From assembly GCA_029777885.1 (NCBI GenBank), contig JAKORJ010000142.1, positions 1 through 34,730 on the forward strand: a stretch of 34,730 bases of DNA, given 5' to 3'. The translations under genes were made by a program, and so were the position numbers. The notes under the pieces were generated by a model. It saw only the letters and a program-made list of their open reading frames with translations, did not search any database and was not told the DNA's origin. Below, in pieces: positions 6,634 to 26,351 of the stretch. Within the stretch, counting starts at the first letter, position 1. Each line of letters opens with the position of its first letter. The stretch is from Bacillota bacterium. Its GTDB lineage: Bacteria; Bacillota; Clostridia; Caldicoprobacterales; DTU083.

Positions 6634-7311
6634 GTGTCGTGCATTATCAAAACAGTGGATCTATCCCGTCAATTCAAATCAGGAAATGAAACTGTTGATG
6701 CCTTGAAGGACGTTAGTATTGAGATCCGGGAAGGGACCCTCACGATGCTCAGGGGAAGGTCCGGTTCAGGCAAGACCACGCTGATCAACCTGCTAGGCGC
6801 CCTGGATAAGCCTACAAGGGGTTACGTCTATTTCGACGGGGAGGAGATCACCCAGCTGCCTGAGGCTAAAAGGGACCTGCTTCGTAGGAACAAGATGGGC
6901 TTTGTGTTTCAGTCCATAGCCCTGATGCCCCTCATGTCTGCATACGAAAACGTGGAGTTTGCGCTTAGGATAGCAGGCTACAACAAAAGCAGAATGAAGG
7001 CCAGAGTCGAGGAATGCCTGTCGATAGTGAACCTCACCGGGAGGATGCATCACAGGCCCCAGGAGCTGTCCGGTGGGGAACAGCAACGCGTAGCTATAGC
7101 CCGGGCAATAGCTCACAGGCCCAAGGTCGTTTTTGCCGACGAGCCTACGGCTGAGCTTGATACCGGTATGGGCCGCCAGGTCATAAAGCTGTTGAAAAGC
7201 CTGACGGAAAGGGAAGGCCTGACGGTGGTCCTCACGACCCATGACCCCGACCTGCTGGAACTGGCGGATTGCGTTTATACCTTAGAGGACGGTATGATAA
7301 TAAAGGAATAA
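6634..7311 (+). CDS. ABC transporter ATP-binding protein, MacB/LolD type (first of pair)
   Basis: A 225-aa nucleotide-binding subunit. Walker A is GRSGSGKTT (residues 41-49), the Q-loop region is GFVFQSIALMPLM, the signature is LSGGEQQRVAIARA, Walker B is VVFADEPTAELD, and the H-loop is TTHDPDLLELAD. The start is GTG at 6634 with AGGGGG at 6621-6626; upstream in-frame starts lack a ribosome site and add a stretch not found in the family. Proteins of this class usually energise FtsX/MacB-type permeases, but no permease is adjacent. A second ATPase follows after 16 bp, so the two may form a heterodimer. Confidence 0.9.
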   Translation: MSCIIKTVDLSRQFKSGNETVDALKDVSIEIREGTLTMLRGRSGSGKTTLINLLGALDKPTRGYVYFDGEEITQLPEAKRDLLRRNKMGFVFQSIALMPLMSAYENVEFALRIAGYNKSRMKARVEECLSIVNLTGRMHHRPQELSGGEQQRVAIARAIAHRPKVVFADEPTAELDTGMGRQVIKLLKSLTEREGLTVVLTTHDPDLLELADCVYTLEDGMIIKE

Positions 7312-7327
7312 GCGGAGGATATGAGCC

Positions 7328-8230
7328 TTGATACGTTGCGAAAACCTGGTCAAGATCTATAAGACGGCCGAGCTGGAGGTCATCGCCCTTCAGGGACTTG
7401 ACCTGTCCGTGGAGGACGGAGAGGTGATGGCTATAATAGGCAACAGCGGGAGCGGGAAATCTACCCTGCTAAATATCCTGGGCGGCCTGGACAGGCCGTC
7501 GGCCGGTACTGTCATGGTGGACAACAAGGACCTGCTCAAGCTGACGGACCAGCAGCTGGTGAAGTATAAAAGGGAGACAGTCGGCTTTGTATGGCAGAAC
7601 AATGCTCGCAACCTGATCCCATACCTGACTGCGCTGGAAAATGTCGAGCTCCCCATGATAATAAGCGGCAAAGCCAAACGCGACAGGGCTTTGGAGCTGT
7701 TGGACATGGTGGGGCTGTCCCATCGGCGCAACAGCAAGCTGAGCCAGTTGTCCGGCGGGGAGCAGCAGAGGGTCGCGATCGCCATTGCCCTTGCCAATAA
7801 GCCCAAGCTGCTGCTGGCGGACGAACCGACAGGCGCGGTGGATACCAGGACAGCTGACCAGATCCTGGACGTGTTCCGCGAGTTCAATAAAACATACGGC
7901 ATCACCATTGTCATTGTTACCCATGACCGCAAGCTGTCCAGGAAGGTCGACCGGGTCGTCGCCATACGGGATGGAAGGACCAGCAGTGAATTCATCCGCA
8001 AGCGGAACAACTCGGAGGAGCCGGCCGAGGTACAAGCTGGCCTGAATGACATGGCAGCTGTGGAAGAAGATACCCACGAGGAACTCGCGGTGATCGATAA
8101 GGCCGGACGGGTCCAGATACCAAAGGAGTACCTGGAAGCCCTGGGGTTGCTGGGCAAGAACAAGATCAAGGTGGAGCTGGACAATAACAAGATCATCCTG
8201 GTCCCGCCGGAAAGCCAGGATATTACTTGA
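7328..8230 (+). CDS. ABC transporter ATP-binding protein with C-terminal SpoVT/AbrB domain
   Basis: A 300-aa protein in two parts. Residues 1-220 form a complete MacB/LolD-type ATPase: Walker A GNSGSGKST (38-46), Q-loop GFVWQ, signature LSGGEQQ (141-147), Walker B LLLADEPTG, H-loop VTHD. The usual AIARAL after the signature reads AIAIAL. A charged linker (about 221-252) leads to a SpoVT/AbrB-like swapped-hairpin domain at about 253-295, with VIDKAGRVQIPKEYLEALG and then KVELDNNKIILVPPE. AbrB domains bind DNA or dimerise. The start is TTG at 7328, 9 bases after GGAGG (7314-7318); ATG at 7321 is out of frame. A hairpin terminator follows the gene. Confidence 0.9.
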   Translation: MIRCENLVKIYKTAELEVIALQGLDLSVEDGEVMAIIGNSGSGKSTLLNILGGLDRPSAGTVMVDNKDLLKLTDQQLVKYKRETVGFVWQNNARNLIPYLTALENVELPMIISGKAKRDRALELLDMVGLSHRRNSKLSQLSGGEQQRVAIAIALANKPKLLLADEPTGAVDTRTADQILDVFREFNKTYGITIVIVTHDRKLSRKVDRVVAIRDGRTSSEFIRKRNNSEEPAEVQAGLNDMAAVEEDTHEELAVIDKAGRVQIPKEYLEALGLLGKNKIKVELDNNKIILVPPESQDIT

Positions 8231-8338
8231 AAACAAAACTAAAATCATGATTGATAGCCAAGCTGCGATCAACTAAGTTAAACCAGAGCTATATTAAATA
8301 ATAATAGCTGTTAATTATGATAGAAATTTAAAATAGTG

Positions 8339-8366
8339 AAGCCGCCTTTCAGGCGGCTTGCTTTTT
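8339..8366. terminator. bidirectional terminator between ABC-AbrB and chemoreceptor genes
   Basis: AAGCCGCCT (8339-8347) pairs perfectly with AGGCGGCTT (8351-8359), followed by GCTTTTT. On the other strand the stem is followed by a T-rich stretch (complement of 8325-8338), so it can serve both convergent genes. The rest of 8231-8388 is AT-rich and shows no gene. Confidence 0.88.
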
Positions 8367-8388
8367 GGATTATAACTGCATGGATGCC

Positions 8389-9666
8389 TTAGAACTTGTA
8401 TATCTCAACATACTTCCTGAGCCTTTGAGCCAGCACATTCAACTCTTTAGCTGAATTGGTCATGGAGTTGATGATCTCCTTCTGCTCCTGGGTGCTTGCT
8501 GCTACCTGTTGGCTGGAAGCGGCTGCTTCCTCAGATACTGCAGATATGTTCTGGATGGCGTTGATGGCGTCATTCTTGCTCTGCTCCATGACTCTGGCTG
8601 CTTCAACGACCTGGTCTATCTTTTCCGATATAGTATTCATACCGTCTGCTATCTGCTGGAATGTGAGGATCGTATTGTCAACAGCCTGGGACTGCATTGT
8701 CATGACGCTGTGGGTATGTTCCAGGATCTCAGAGGCGTGGTCGGCTTCCTTTATGATGCCTTCCATGATACTTTCAATCTGGTCGGTCGCCCTCTTGCTG
8801 TTGTCAGCGAGCTTCCTGACCTCATCCGCGACAACTGCAAAACCGAGGCCTGCTTCGCCGGCCCTGGCAGCCTCGATAGCCGCATTCAAGGCGAGCAGGT
8901 TGGTCTGGGTGGCTATCGTGTTTATCGTTGTGACAAACTGGCCTATTTCTTTTGATTTGTCTATAAATGAGGTAATGAACTCGGAAACCTTTCCGGTCGT
9001 GCTCGTGCTTTCCTCATTGGCCTGTTTAAGTGAATTGATGGCGTCGATACCCTTTTTATTGAGCGCGATCATATCCTTGGAGGCCTCGGCAACATTGAAT
9101 GAGTGCTCGGCAACCCTGTTGATCTGCTCGGACAAGCCCATGATCAGGTTAACGCCCTTTTCCGCCTCGGATGCCTGCTCGGAAGCCCCTCTGGCTATCT
9201 CGTTCATCGTCATTGATATATCATCGATTGAAGAGTTTACTTTTTCATAGTTGTTGCTGAACATATTAGAGGTCTCCAGCAACTGCCTGGACAGGTCGTT
9301 GAAGGTCGTCATTATATTGCGCAGGTCATCGATCATAGCCTTGAAGCTGGTGGCCACATCCTCCAGCCCCTCAAGCTCGGAAAGATCCAATACCTTTTCA
9401 TTCAGGTCCTTGGCCCTGATCCTGTCCATAATATAGCTGGTCGATCTCATCCTGCGGTTGGAGGCATTTACCAATAAGGCAGTAACACCTAATAGTGAGC
9501 CCAGCATGAAAATCAAAAGCATTATGAATTGCGGTCCGGTCACCTTCCATTCAGGTCCGATTATCTGCCACAGGATCAATATTAGCGTTATACCGAAAAT
9601 CGATACGAATAAAAACGGTTTTTTGAGAAATACCATAAGAAGCTTGTCTAACAGCGATTTATTCAT
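8389..9666 (-). CDS. methyl-accepting chemotaxis protein without extracellular sensor domain
   Basis: A 425-aa chemoreceptor. Two hydrophobic segments (about residues 17-36 and 44-66) are separated by only a few residues, so there is no periplasmic ligand domain. A HAMP-like region (about 67-120) and a long coiled-coil signalling domain follow. The hairpin tip that contacts CheA/CheW is clear: [19 protein letters not shown] followed by [13 protein letters not shown]. It may sense membrane or cytoplasmic cues, as short receptors of this layout are thought to do. The start ATG at 9666 is preceded by GGAGG at 7-base spacing. No other chemotaxis gene is in the window. Confidence 0.93.
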
Positions 9667-9695
9667 AACATAACCTCCAGTAAGATTCTGTGTAA

Positions 9696-9704
9696 ATTAT
9701 AGCA
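9696..9704 (-). promoter_or_regulatory. extended -10 of the chemoreceptor promoter
   Basis: On the minus strand TGCTATAAT (9704-9696) forms an extended -10; the -35 region (TTTACT, 18 bp upstream) is weak. This is a SigA-type signal; the sigma-D motility consensus GCCGATAA is not seen. Confidence 0.55.
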
Positions 9705-9730
9705 TTTTTCAAATTATTTAGTAAAGCGTT

Positions 9731-9759
9731 TTGACGGAAAATAAATAATTATGTATGAT
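9731..9759 (+). promoter_or_regulatory. aconitase promoter P1 (distal)
   Basis: TTGACG (9731-9736) and TATGAT (9754-9759) with exactly 17 bp between them. Confidence 0.55.
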
Positions 9760-9787
9760 TGACGCATGTTGTATAATTGTATACAAT
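9759..9787 (+). promoter_or_regulatory. aconitase promoter P2 (proximal)
   Basis: TTGACG (9759-9764) and TACAAT (9782-9787) with 17-bp spacing. Its -10 lies inside the 22-bp palindrome at 9771-9792, so a protein bound there would block it. Confidence 0.65.
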
Positions 9788-9792
9788 TATAC
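9771..9792. promoter_or_regulatory. perfect 22-bp palindrome, probable GntR operator
   Basis: Bases 9771-9792 are a perfect inverted repeat with no spacer, centred between 9781 and 9782. The core is TTGTATACAA, with arms extending to GTATAA and TTATAC. FCD-type GntR regulators commonly bind short palindromes of the TNGTNNNACNA kind, and TTGTATACAA fits. It overlaps the -10 of P2 and lies about 55 bp before the aconitase start. The GntR/FCD gene just downstream of acn is the likely binder. Confidence 0.7.
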
Positions 9793-9846
9793 CGTATATA
9801 AATGCATATCAATATCTGTATGAACATATAAGGCAGGAGGTTTACT

Positions 9847-11778
9847 ATGGGATACAACATAACGCAGAAAATAATCAAGAGTCATCTGGTATCCGGTTCG
9901 ATGGTCCCGGGCAGCGAGATCGCAATAGCCATTGACCAGACCTTGACCCAGGATTCCACTGGGACGATGGCATATCTACAGTTTGAAGCAATGGGCGTGT
10001 CGAGGGTAAGGACAAAGAAGTCGGTGGCTTATATAGACCATAATACCCTGCAGCAGGGCTTTGAGAATGCAGACGACCATAAATATATACAGACAGTAGC
10101 TTCAAAGCACGGGGTATACTTTTCCAGGCCAGGCAACGGGATCTGCCACCAGGTCCACCTGGAGAGGTTCGGTAGGCCGGGCTGGACGCTCCTGGGCTCC
10201 GACAGCCATACACCGACCGCAGGAGGCATAGGCATGCTGGCCATAGGCGCAGGCGGCCTTGATGTTGCCGTTGCCATGGCAGGAGGGCCTTATCATCTGG
10301 CCATGCCAAAGGTATGCAAGGTTACGCTCAAGGGTAAGCTACAGCCCTGGGTATCGGCCAAGGACATAATACTGAGGATATTGATGCTGCTCAGCGTAAA
10401 GGGCGGGGTAGGAAAGGTACTGGAGTATGCCGGCCCCGGCGTGGCATCCCTGACTGTGCCTGAGAGGTCCACGATCACCAACATGGGTGCAGAGCTTGGC
10501 GCGACGACGTCGATCTTCCCCAGCGATGAGCAGACCAGGCTTTTTATGAAGGCCCAGGGCAGGGAGGAAGAATGGATGCCGCTGGCAGCGGATCCGGATG
10601 CGGTATATGATGAAGAGATCGAGCTTGACTTAAGCGAGCTGGAACCCATGGTTGCTAGGCCCCACAGCCCGGACAATGTAGTGCCTGTCAGTGAAGTAAA
10701 GAACCTTAAGATCGACCAGGTAGCGATCGGCAGCTGTACCAACTCGTCATACCTGGACCTGATGAAGACAGCCAGGATACTCAAGGGCAGGACCGTGCAC
10801 CCGGATGTGAGCCTGGTGATCGCTCCGGGTTCCAAGCAGGTTTATACTATGCTTGCAAAGAACGGCGCTCTTGCTGATTTGATAGAAGCAGGGGCCAGGA
10901 TCCTGGAGTCAGCCTGCGGCCCGTGCATAGGCATGGGTCAGGCGCCGGCGTCAGGGGCTGTGTCTTTGAGGACCTTCAACCGCAACTTCTATGGCAGAAG
11001 TGGGACCCTGAGTGCTCATGTATACCTTGTGAGCCCGGAAGTGGCTGCGGTTTCAGCCTTGACCGGTGTCCTGACTGATCCCAGGGAGTTTGGCGAGCCG
11101 CCAATGATCGACCTTCCTGAATACTTCCTGATAAATGACAACGGCATAATCCCGCCTGCAGAGGATCCGGACAGCGTTGAGGTGGTAAGGGGACCAAACA
11201 TCAAGCCGTTCCCCATAAACAAGGAGCTGCCTGGTGAAGTTAAAGGGACAGTGCTCCTGAAAATGGAGGACAACATCACCACGGACCATATAATGCCGTC
11301 TAATGCGAAGCTACTGCCATTCAGGTCCAATATACCTTACCTTTCGGATTACTGCCTGACGCCGGTGGACAGCGAGTTCCCGAAACATGCAAAGGAAAAG
11401 GGCGGCGGTTTCCTGGTAGCCGGACACAATTACGGCCAGGGCTCGAGCCGCGAGCATGCTGCCCTGGTACCTCTTTACCTGGGCATCAAAGGCGTGATAG
11501 CCAAGTCCTTTGCCCGTATACACAGGTCAAACCTGATAAATTCCGGCATATTGCCGCTTGTATTCAGCGATGAGGCGGATTATGACAAGCTCAACCAGGG
11601 GGACGACCTGGTGATCGAGGATGCTGATTCCCAGGTCAAAGCCGGTGAAGTGATAGAAATCAAAAATCTGACCAAGGGTGTAACTATAAAGGCTGTACTA
11701 AGGCTCTCGCCCAGGGAGAAGGAGATCATACTCGCAGGCGGGCTGCTCAATCTTACACGGAAAGCTGCAATAGAATAG
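9847..11778 (+). CDS. acn: aconitate hydratase (Aquifex type)
   Basis: A [4Fe-4S] enzyme interconverting citrate and isocitrate in the cytoplasm. Its 643 aa matches the short Aquifex-type aconitases rather than the 850-900 aa AcnA/AcnB. The cluster cysteines are visible as GSCTNSS (Cys297) and ACGPCIGMG (Cys357, Cys360). Also present are LLGSDSHTPTAGG near residue 117, and in the swivel domain TTDHIMPSNA and GHNYGQGSSREHAAL, which carries the substrate-binding serine/arginine. The start ATG at 9847 has GGCAGGAGG at 9832-9840. Isocitrate dehydrogenase, often a neighbour in Clostridia, is absent. Tandem promoters and a palindromic operator precede it and a GntR regulator follows after 36 bp. 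In an anaerobe it most likely supplies 2-oxoglutarate for glutamate synthesis. Confidence 0.93.
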   Translation: MGYNITQKIIKSHLVSGSMVPGSEIAIAIDQTLTQDSTGTMAYLQFEAMGVSRVRTKKSVAYIDHNTLQQGFENADDHKYIQTVASKHGVYFSRPGNGICHQVHLERFGRPGWTLLGSDSHTPTAGGIGMLAIGAGGLDVAVAMAGGPYHLAMPKVCKVTLKGKLQPWVSAKDIILRILMLLSVKGGVGKVLEYAGPGVASLTVPERSTITNMGAELGATTSIFPSDEQTRLFMKAQGREEEWMPLAADPDAVYDEEIELDLSELEPMVARPHSPDNVVPVSEVKNLKIDQVAIGSCTNSSYLDLMKTARILKGRTVHPDVSLVIAPGSKQVYTMLAKNGALADLIEAGARILESACGPCIGMGQAPASGAVSLRTFNRNFYGRSGTLSAHVYLVSPEVAAVSALTGVLTDPREFGEPPMIDLPEYFLINDNGIIPPAEDPDSVEVVRGPNIKPFPINKELPGEVKGTVLLKMEDNITTDHIMPSNAKLLPFRSNIPYLSDYCLTPVDSEFPKHAKEKGGGFLVAGHNYGQGSSREHAALVPLYLGIKGVIAKSFARIHRSNLINSGILPLVFSDEADYDKLNQGDDLVIEDADSQVKAGEVIEIKNLTKGVTIKAVLRLSPREKEIILAGGLLNLTRKAAIE

Positions 11779-11814
11779 GCTTATGCGAAAAAAGGCTGTT
11801 CAGGAGGTAATAAA

Positions 11815-24065: not shown

Positions 24066-24914
24066 ATGAACAAGGTTAAGATCTTTACTGACAGCACAGT
24101 GGACCTGACAAAGGATCTGGTTGAGAAGTACGAAATAGGAGTCGTGCCCTTATACGTAAATATCGAAGATGCAAGCTACCTTGACGGGATCGAGATAACG
24201 ACTGCGGACCTTTACAGGATAGTTGATGAAAAGCAGACGCTGCCCAAGACATCGACCGCACCTGTTACGGATTTCGTTGACGCCTTTACACCGTGGATAA
24301 ACGACGGTTATGATATCATTTTTATGGGAGTCTCATCCAAGCTGTCATCAACATATCAGACAGCGGCACTGGCAGCCAGGGAGTTTGATGAAGGAAGGGT
24401 GACCCTGGTAGATTCCCTGAGCCTTTCGACCGGTACTGCCTTGCAGGTGGTAAAAGCCGCAGAATTGGCAAAGGCCGGTTTGGATTCAAAAACCATAGCC
24501 GGGATCGTATCAGAAATAACGCCCAGGGTCAGGGCGAGCTTTATTATAGATACCCTCAAGTATCTGCACATGGGTGGCAGATGCAGCGCTATCCAGCTTC
24601 TGGCGAGCAATGTGCTGAAGATCCATCCCCAGATCATCGTAAAGGACGGCGCGATGATAGTGGGCGCCAAGTTCCGCGGAAAGTGGAAGAACTGCCTGGA
24701 CAACTACTATGAGGTCACGGTGGGGGATGGCTCACAGATCGATCCCGAGCGGGTATTCATCACCCATTCAAAAAACCAGGAGACCGCTGAGTACTTCAAG
24801 CAGCGCATGGAGAAGGAGCTGAACATAAAGGAGATCCTGATCACGGAAGCAGGCACGGTTATCTCCAGCCACTGCGGCCCTGGCACGATAGGCATTTTGT
24901 ACATTGAAAAATAA
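24066..24914 (+). CDS. DegV family protein (FakB-type fatty-acid binding)
   Basis: A 282-aa DegV-domain protein. In Firmicutes these (FakB) bind a fatty acid and present it to the kinase FakA for phosphorylation and entry into phospholipid synthesis. Seen are the N-terminal FTDSTVDLT, KTSTAPVTDF near residue 61 (headgroup loop, usually TSQPS), LKYLHMGGRCS near 166 with the conserved Gly-Gly-Arg, and SHCGPGTIGI at the end. ATG at 24066 has AGGGGG 6 bases upstream and a consensus-like promoter. No FakA is nearby, as is usual for one of several DegV paralogues. Confidence 0.93.
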   Translation: MNKVKIFTDSTVDLTKDLVEKYEIGVVPLYVNIEDASYLDGIEITTADLYRIVDEKQTLPKTSTAPVTDFVDAFTPWINDGYDIIFMGVSSKLSSTYQTAALAAREFDEGRVTLVDSLSLSTGTALQVVKAAELAKAGLDSKTIAGIVSEITPRVRASFIIDTLKYLHMGGRCSAIQLLASNVLKIHPQIIVKDGAMIVGAKFRGKWKNCLDNYYEVTVGDGSQIDPERVFITHSKNQETAEYFKQRMEKELNIKEILITEAGTVISSHCGPGTIGILYIEK

Positions 24915-25001
24915 TAGGCTTGCCTGACAGCCTGACAAAATCCTGCCGCGTCATTTTTTTACCAATGGGCACATAGGTATTTAAAAAGGGGCGTGAGCAG
25001 G

Positions 25002-25820
25002 ATGAAACTGGGTTTTGCGCAGATAAAAAGCTGCAGTAGTTACGAGGAGTATATGGAGCAATCCATAGACTTTATATATCTTGCAGGCAAGCTTGGCCTC
25101 AACCTGGTTTGCTTCCCCGAGATGCACCTTTCCGACTTCTTTTTGCACAAAATGGCCAGCTCTTATCCCTTTCAGCAGGCCGAGGGGATACCCGGTCCGA
25201 CCGTTGAAAGGTTCCAAAGGCTGGCCAGAGAGCTTAACATAGCGGTGATACTCAACTATACAGAGATCTTTATCCATGATTTTTACAACGCCTCGCCGGT
25301 CATTGACAGCACAGGCAAGATCCTGGGCGTGTCCCGGATGGTGCATGTCCCCCAGGTCGAGGGTTATTATGCCCAAAGCTACTTCATGCCCGGCTGCGGA
25401 GACTTCCATGTATATGAGACGCAGTACTGTCGGGTAGGGGTCCTTATTTCCTTCGACCGGCATTATCCCGAAGCTGCCAGAGCCCTGGCAATACATGATG
25501 CTGATATCATCCTGATCCCAGGCTACCTCTATGCCGGAGACGATCTGGATATTTACGAGGCTGAGATAAGGACAATCGCTTATCAGAACTGCGTTTATGT
25601 AGGGATGTGCAACCGTGTGGGATTCGAGGACGGCGTACGGCATATGGGAGGAAGTATCCTAGCCGGCCCCGACGGGAAAATAATAGTGAGGGGCTCGGAC
25701 CAAAGCGAGTTGGTCGTAGCGGAGATAGATATAGACTATGTCAGGGAAAAGCGTAAAAAAAGCCCATACCTGACGCTGCGCAGACCAGATGAGTACCTCC
25801 ACATCATAAAGCACGGATGA
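25002..25820 (+). CDS. nitrilase-superfamily protein lacking catalytic Lys and Cys
   Basis: A 272-aa alpha-beta-beta-alpha carbon-nitrogen hydrolase fold, close in layout to N-carbamoylputrescine amidases. The superfamily uses Glu-Lys-Cys. Here Glu40 is kept (CFPEMHLSDF). The lysine of the usual YRKxHI is Met113 (GVSRMVHVP, codon ATG), and the cysteine of GICWDxxFPEAAR is Ser150 (VLISFDRHYPEAAR, codon TCC). The second glutamate region also differs (YYAQSYF). The flanking motif IRTIAYQNCVYVGMCNRVG is intact, so the fold should be sound. ATG at 25002 fits AAGGGG 10 bases upstream; GTG at 24993 is too close to it. It lies 42 bp before trmL. It may be non-hydrolytic (binding or regulatory), or a serine variant. 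Confidence 0.88.
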   Translation: MKLGFAQIKSCSSYEEYMEQSIDFIYLAGKLGLNLVCFPEMHLSDFFLHKMASSYPFQQAEGIPGPTVERFQRLARELNIAVILNYTEIFIHDFYNASPVIDSTGKILGVSRMVHVPQVEGYYAQSYFMPGCGDFHVYETQYCRVGVLISFDRHYPEAARALAIHDADIILIPGYLYAGDDLDIYEAEIRTIAYQNCVYVGMCNRVGFEDGVRHMGGSILAGPDGKIIVRGSDQSELVVAEIDIDYVREKRKKSPYLTLRRPDEYLHIIKHG

Positions 25821-25862: not shown

Positions 25863-26351
25863 ATGCCGTTGAACATTGTATTGGTTGAACCTGAGATACC
25901 ACAGAATACAGGCAATATAGCGAGGACCTGTGCGGCAACAGGCACTGTTTTGCACCTGGTGAAGCCATTGGGCTTTTCCGTTGAGGACCGTTACCTAAAG
26001 CGGGCAGGGCTGGATTACTGGAAATTCGTTGATATCCGGTACTATGAATCCCTCGATGAGTTTTTTTCCAGGTACCCGGCAAGCGATTGCTATTTTACCT
26101 CCACAAAGGGCAAGCACAGATATGATGAAGTGAGGTATTCACCGGACAGCTTCATCCTGTTCGGCAAGGAAACCAAGGGGCTGCCCGAGCCGCTGCTTGC
26201 AGCCAACTATGACAGGTGCATCCGGATCCCCATGAAGGCTGAAACCAGGTCCTTGAACCTTTCCAACGCAGCGGCCATAGTCCTGTACGAAGCCTTAAGG
26301 CAGCTTGGCTTTCCCGGGCTGAAGTTCGAAGGCGAGCTCACCCGCTACTAG
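25863..26351 (+). CDS. trmL: tRNA (cytidine(34)-2'-O)-methyltransferase TrmL
   Basis: A 162-aa SPOUT methyltransferase that methylates the 2'-O of the wobble base in leucine tRNAs using S-adenosylmethionine. The family's compact length and motifs are visible: the N-terminal VLVEPEIPQNTGNIARTC, FGKETKGLP near residue 100, and the knot segment IPMKAETRSLNLSNAAAIVLYEA. ATG at 25863 is preferred because AGGAG (25853-25857) lies 5 bases upstream; an in-frame ATG at 25845 has no site. It probably shares a transcript with the preceding nitrilase-like gene. The cggR promoter follows. Confidence 0.93.
   Translation: MPLNIVLVEPEIPQNTGNIARTCAATGTVLHLVKPLGFSVEDRYLKRAGLDYWKFVDIRYYESLDEFFSRYPASDCYFTSTKGKHRYDEVRYSPDSFILFGKETKGLPEPLLAANYDRCIRIPMKAETRSLNLSNAAAIVLYEALRQLGFPGLKFEGELTRY

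Follow-up and report, generated by a model that had tools for sequence, protein, structure and literature searches.

A conserved nitrilase-fold protein that has lost most of its catalytic residues, probably a maintained pseudoenzyme, beside trmL in a family of Clostridia

The window analysed here is a stretch of 34,730 nucleotides from a Bacillota genome (contig JAKORJ010000142.1; genome G000 below). An uninterrupted open reading frame on its forward strand (positions 25002-25820) encodes a protein of 272 amino acids with a CN_hydrolase fold, the putative pseudo-nitrilase that is the subject of this report. Its ATG start is common to the gene and all of its orthologues; an alternative in-frame GTG at 24993 would extend the protein by MSR. 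The gene is flanked by degV upstream (24066-24914, forward strand) and by trmL downstream (25863-26351, forward strand), which encodes a SPOUT tRNA methyltransferase, and the glycolytic cluster cggR-pgk-tpi-gpmI-eno lies beside them, an arrangement that had already been described in an earlier reading made from the sequence only; the gene names follow from sequence reading. Among the genomes that carry the gene, G000, G001 and G002 share the order degV - gene - trmL - cggR - pgk - tpi - gpmI - eno and G008 and G011 the order dinB - gene - trmL - pgk, so that trmL is the only immediate neighbour common to all five carriers.

The window protein matches the Pfam family CN_hydrolase (PF00795) with an E-value of 8e-40 and 137.2 bits, above the curated cut-off of 23.2, and its nearest NCBIfam model is that of N-carbamoylputrescine amidase (TIGR03381), for which it scores 145.1 bits, well under the equivalog cut-off of 410.25 bits. 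An AlphaFold2 model built from 54 aligned sequences has a mean pLDDT of 91.6 and a pTM of 0.92. Its best structural matches are two structures of the N-carbamoylputrescine amidase MtCPA from Medicago (5h8j and 5h8l), which superpose on 261 residues of the model with an rmsd of 1.6-1.7 and a Z of about 36; solved nitrilases match it with Z of 30-36, in keeping with a predicted alpha-beta-beta-alpha nitrilase fold. The nearest solved relatives are MtCPA (5h8k) and the D-carbamoylases. By sequence profile and predicted structure, the protein is a member of the CN hydrolase/nitrilase fold superfamily, and represents neither a new fold nor a new system. The open frame, the Pfam match and the confidence of the model bear out the proposal of the sequence-only reading that fold motifs and frame are intact. 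The glutaminase domains of glutamine-dependent NAD synthetases share this fold as well; they are fused to a synthetase domain, whereas the window protein stands alone.

The register of the active site was set by alignment of the window protein to MtCPA (PDB 5h8k), and the alignment to N-carbamoylputrescine amidase is unambiguous. In MtCPA the triad consists of Glu48, Lys121 and Cys158, and Glu132 is the second conserved glutamate (PMC4812014). The four catalytic positions fall in the same register in the window protein, which is about 30% identical to the AguB/CPA enzymes (MtCPA structures 5h8i-5h8l). The first glutamate, the general base, is present as Glu40 (codon GAG, 25119-25121, forward strand, as are all codons given here), whereas the catalytic Lys121 is replaced by Met113 (ATG, 25338-25340), the second Glu132 by Ala124 (GCC, 25371-25373) and the nucleophile Cys158 by Ser150 (TCC, 25449-25451). 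The exchanges of Lys for Met113 and of Cys for Ser150 had been assigned to these same residues without the structural alignment, and the retention of Glu40 stands; the statement that only one residue of a triad is left understates the change, since the second glutamate had been missed and three of the four residues of the Glu-Lys-Glu-Cys tetrad, not two of three, are lost. Around the active site, Phe46 takes the place of Tyr54 of the MtCPA pocket, and Gly179 that of Glu187, the residue which selects the amine; the loop after Gly179 is gapped in the alignment. Given these two exchanges, the ligand need not be that of MtCPA.

Orthologues were found in five species from three genera of one family, with 64-94% identity, and all of them have Glu, Met, Ala and Ser at the four positions, with the Ser150 codon being TCC in every case. 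Within that family the match score falls from 561 to 139 bits after the orthologues. The question raised by the sequence-only reading, whether Met and Ser are conserved as a clade, is answered by these homologues: all five close ones share the substitutions and none has the normal triad. Agreement among five genomes and three genera argues against a recent mutation or an assembly error. The catalytic residues do not appear to have been relocated, as the invariant lysines (30, 106 and 252) and cysteines (37, 132 and 203) of the clade all lie off the catalytic motifs; nor is residue 112 a convincing stand-in for the lysine: the window clade has Arg there, but in the more distant relatives with Met at the lysine position (hereafter Met-type) the residue varies between Lys, Arg, Ala and Thr. 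Asp45 and Asp134 are specific to the window clade, in which they are new and invariant.

The window gene is under strong purifying selection, with dN/dS of 0.03-0.06, in the range of the neighbouring housekeeping genes. Against the sister species its dN/dS is 0.057 (0.03-0.13 for the neighbours pgk, trmL, cggR, degV and dinB), and between G008 and G011 it is 0.031 (0.10-0.19 for pgk, dinB and trmL). In 21 relatives that bear the lysine, 37 columns are at least 95% conserved; 31 of these are kept in the window clade and six are changed in all five orthologues, three of the six being catalytic, that is, three of the four catalytic columns (hypergeometric P about 0.01). The protein is thus conserved except at the sites of its former chemistry.

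The gene is absent from seven genomes of the family, in which degV is followed directly by trmL, mostly within about 65 bases (about 145 in G012). In a tree of concatenated neighbour genes the carriers lie on both sides of the midpoint root, and the gene tree branches in the same way as the family tree. Together these observations favour an ancestral gene followed by several losses over a late gain within the family. Two scans of viral contigs found no relatives of the window protein, and the best match on plasmids, at 35% identity, is annotated as an ordinary carbon-nitrogen hydrolase.

A wider search covering a phylum-wide sample and one full class showed what the sequence-only reading could not have seen, namely that Met at the lysine position is common to a wider group that keeps the cysteine and the second glutamate. 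Six distant relatives from other families (L065, at 1501-2295 of that locus, and L094-L098) are all Glu-Met-Glu-Cys, which indicates that the Lys-to-Met exchange is older and shared. They are 31-37% identical to the window protein and resemble it in Met113-Val114-His115, Asn85, Phe46 and Cys203; unlike it, they have kept Cys and the second Glu, and their gene contexts are unrelated. Asn85 (codon 25254-25256), Met113, Val114 and Cys203 (codon 25608-25610) are common to all 11 Met-type sequences, whereas the compared Lys-type relatives have Ser or Pro, Lys, a variable residue, and Ser, Ile, Ala or Val, respectively, in these columns. The Met-type branch is rare, occurring in 5 of the 380 genomes of one class, in the same phylum as the window and in other families. 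In another class (399 genomes), 13 of the best 14 loci translated have Glu-Lys-Glu-Cys; the fourteenth (L185) is cut by a contig end and was left out of the count.

Met-type proteins do not form a simple clade free of Lys-type members. A Lys-type sister group of three loci (L066-L068) falls with the window clade in the same supported clade of 14 members (98/94 to 99/95) and nests inside the Met-type proteins, whose monophyly is weakly rejected by the AU test (p 0.039) in the presence of a long branch. The three differ from the window protein in having a complete tetrad, and in two of them an aminotransferase gene lies directly upstream; it is possible, on weak grounds from the tree, that they regained the lysine, or a tree artefact may account for their position. 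Parsimony on the tree suggests that Lys was replaced by Met at the base and that the Glu-to-Ala and Cys-to-Ser exchanges followed in the window clade. In the surroundings of L066 and L067, where the gene follows the aminotransferase gene, an amino-acid permease gene and a PrpF-like gene are close by. Another Met-type gene, at locus L127 of genome G790 (7151-11799), is part of an apparent operon, in which it follows genes whose sequences read as those of a LysR regulator, M20-type amidohydrolase and YfcC-like permease. From this context, that branch may have to do with the breakdown of amides or peptides.

We propose that the window protein belongs to the nitrilase superfamily as a pseudoenzyme, maintained by vertical descent, which holds a ligand non-covalently and arose by stepwise loss of its catalytic residues, a reading that we regard as probable. 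The features by which a pseudoenzyme is recognised, a conserved clade-wide loss of catalytic residues together with purifying selection, are both found. The same interpretation had been offered in the sequence-only reading, and it is upheld in that no Lys or Cys is conserved elsewhere on the catalytic motifs and the close homologues share the substitutions. The alpha-beta-beta-alpha fold is predicted to be kept, and presumably the pocket with it; the residues that relay protons, stabilise charge and serve as nucleophile have become Met113, Ala124 and Ser150, so that Glu40 and, judging from residue types, a mostly uncharged pocket floor would be left. With the nucleophile, the oxyanion lysine and the second glutamate gone, amide hydrolysis by the nitrilase mechanism very probably does not take place, and conventional hydrolysis by this protein is improbable. 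The closest counterpart studied by experiment is the engineered C158S variant of MtCPA (5h8k and 5h8l), in which serine replaces the nucleophile, the rest of the pocket is intact and the exchange "strongly diminished its reactivity" while binding of its ligand putrescine was retained (PMC4812014). By analogy, the window protein may hold a small ligand bearing an amide, carboxylate or amine group without forming a covalent bond, and would then serve in binding, in sensing or as a scaffold; the C158S variant differs in retaining the lysine and both glutamates, whereas in the window protein the lysine and second glutamate have been lost in a natural lineage. The distribution of active sites suggests that Lys gave way to Met before the second Glu and the Cys were exchanged for Ala and Ser. 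Against a pseudoenzyme it can be held that the invariant pair Glu40 and Ser150 might, in principle, work together as a weak Glu-Ser dyad, that the clade-specific Asp45 and Asp134 could supply unrecognised groups, and that the loss of the gene in seven members of the family marks its function as dispensable.

The first two of these objections would point to an active enzyme, an amidase, esterase or acyltransferase with Ser150 as nucleophile and Glu40 as base, in which backbone amides, perhaps together with Asn85, would hold the oxyanion. The invariance of Ser150 (through an identical codon) and Glu40, the appearance of the two aspartates and the co-conservation of Asn85 with Met113 speak for such an enzyme; the lysine and the second glutamate are missing too, though, and no Ser-type nitrilase was found in the literature searched. 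Because of these two losses and the weak reactivity of MtCPA C158S, the serine-dependent amidase that the sequence-only reading had entertained has become less likely, and we consider this class of enzyme unlikely. The protein might instead serve as a non-catalytic subunit of a hetero-oligomer, in which it would stabilise or regulate an active CN-hydrolase paralogue. Nitrilases do oligomerise, and in MtCPA neighbouring subunits shape the entrance of the pocket (PMC4812014); nevertheless, an AguB-type paralogue occurs among the carriers in G002 only, and in the draft assemblies G000 and G001 no close paralogue was found, the other CN_hydrolase matches there being an NAD synthetase (in G000) and a distant protein of 330-340 amino acids. 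Such an assembly is accordingly unlikely in the window genus, and we give it little credence in general.

It is also conceivable that the pocket is irrelevant and that the protein partners TrmL, or another protein linked to translation or glycolysis, in a moonlighting or structural role. This would fit the constant adjacency to trmL and the nearness of the glycolytic cluster; since the locus is co-linear also in genomes without the gene, this adjacency may be passive, and the role seems to us improbable. As for a decaying gene or an artefact of sequencing or binning, the absence of the gene from several members of the family is all that would agree with it. The frame is open in all five genomes, the low dN/dS and the same locus point to maintenance, and identical substitutions recur across three genera, which makes this explanation extremely improbable.

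A more tentative proposal, doubtful at present but worth stating, concerns the Met-type branch as a whole, in which Lys would have been given up for Met with Asn85, Phe46 and Cys203 becoming fixed. Without the lysine, the branch would either carry out hydrolysis or acyl transfer by a Cys-Glu-Glu chemistry or already have consisted of binding proteins; the window clade would then have lost the second Glu and the Cys, and L066-L068 may have regained a Lys-type site. If so, the branch offers a natural series for the study of how the tetrad is dismantled. The wider Met-type clade, with its co-conserved Asn85 and Cys203, may be a more interesting object than the window protein. Members of the nitrilase family receive a hydrolase annotation almost automatically, and "carbon-nitrogen hydrolase", transferred to the window gene in this way, is probably wrong. 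A nitrilase pseudoenzyme of this kind is not described in the part of the open literature that was searched. The window clade is of value chiefly as part of a natural gradation of active sites, in which the living intermediates Glu-Lys-Glu-Cys, Glu-Met-Glu-Cys and Glu-Met-Ala-Ser allow one to test which residue serves what; the maintained branch also lets one ask what use is made of a nitrilase pocket without chemistry.

A separate observation was made on the NAD synthetase of the window genome (L169; G000:C200, 2549-3301). Its glutaminase (CN_hydrolase) domain reads GVAIGEDVY where the same motif in G008 and G011 reads GVEICEDLW, so that the nucleophilic Cys appears as Gly in G000; an NAD synthetase with this exchange would be ammonia-dependent.
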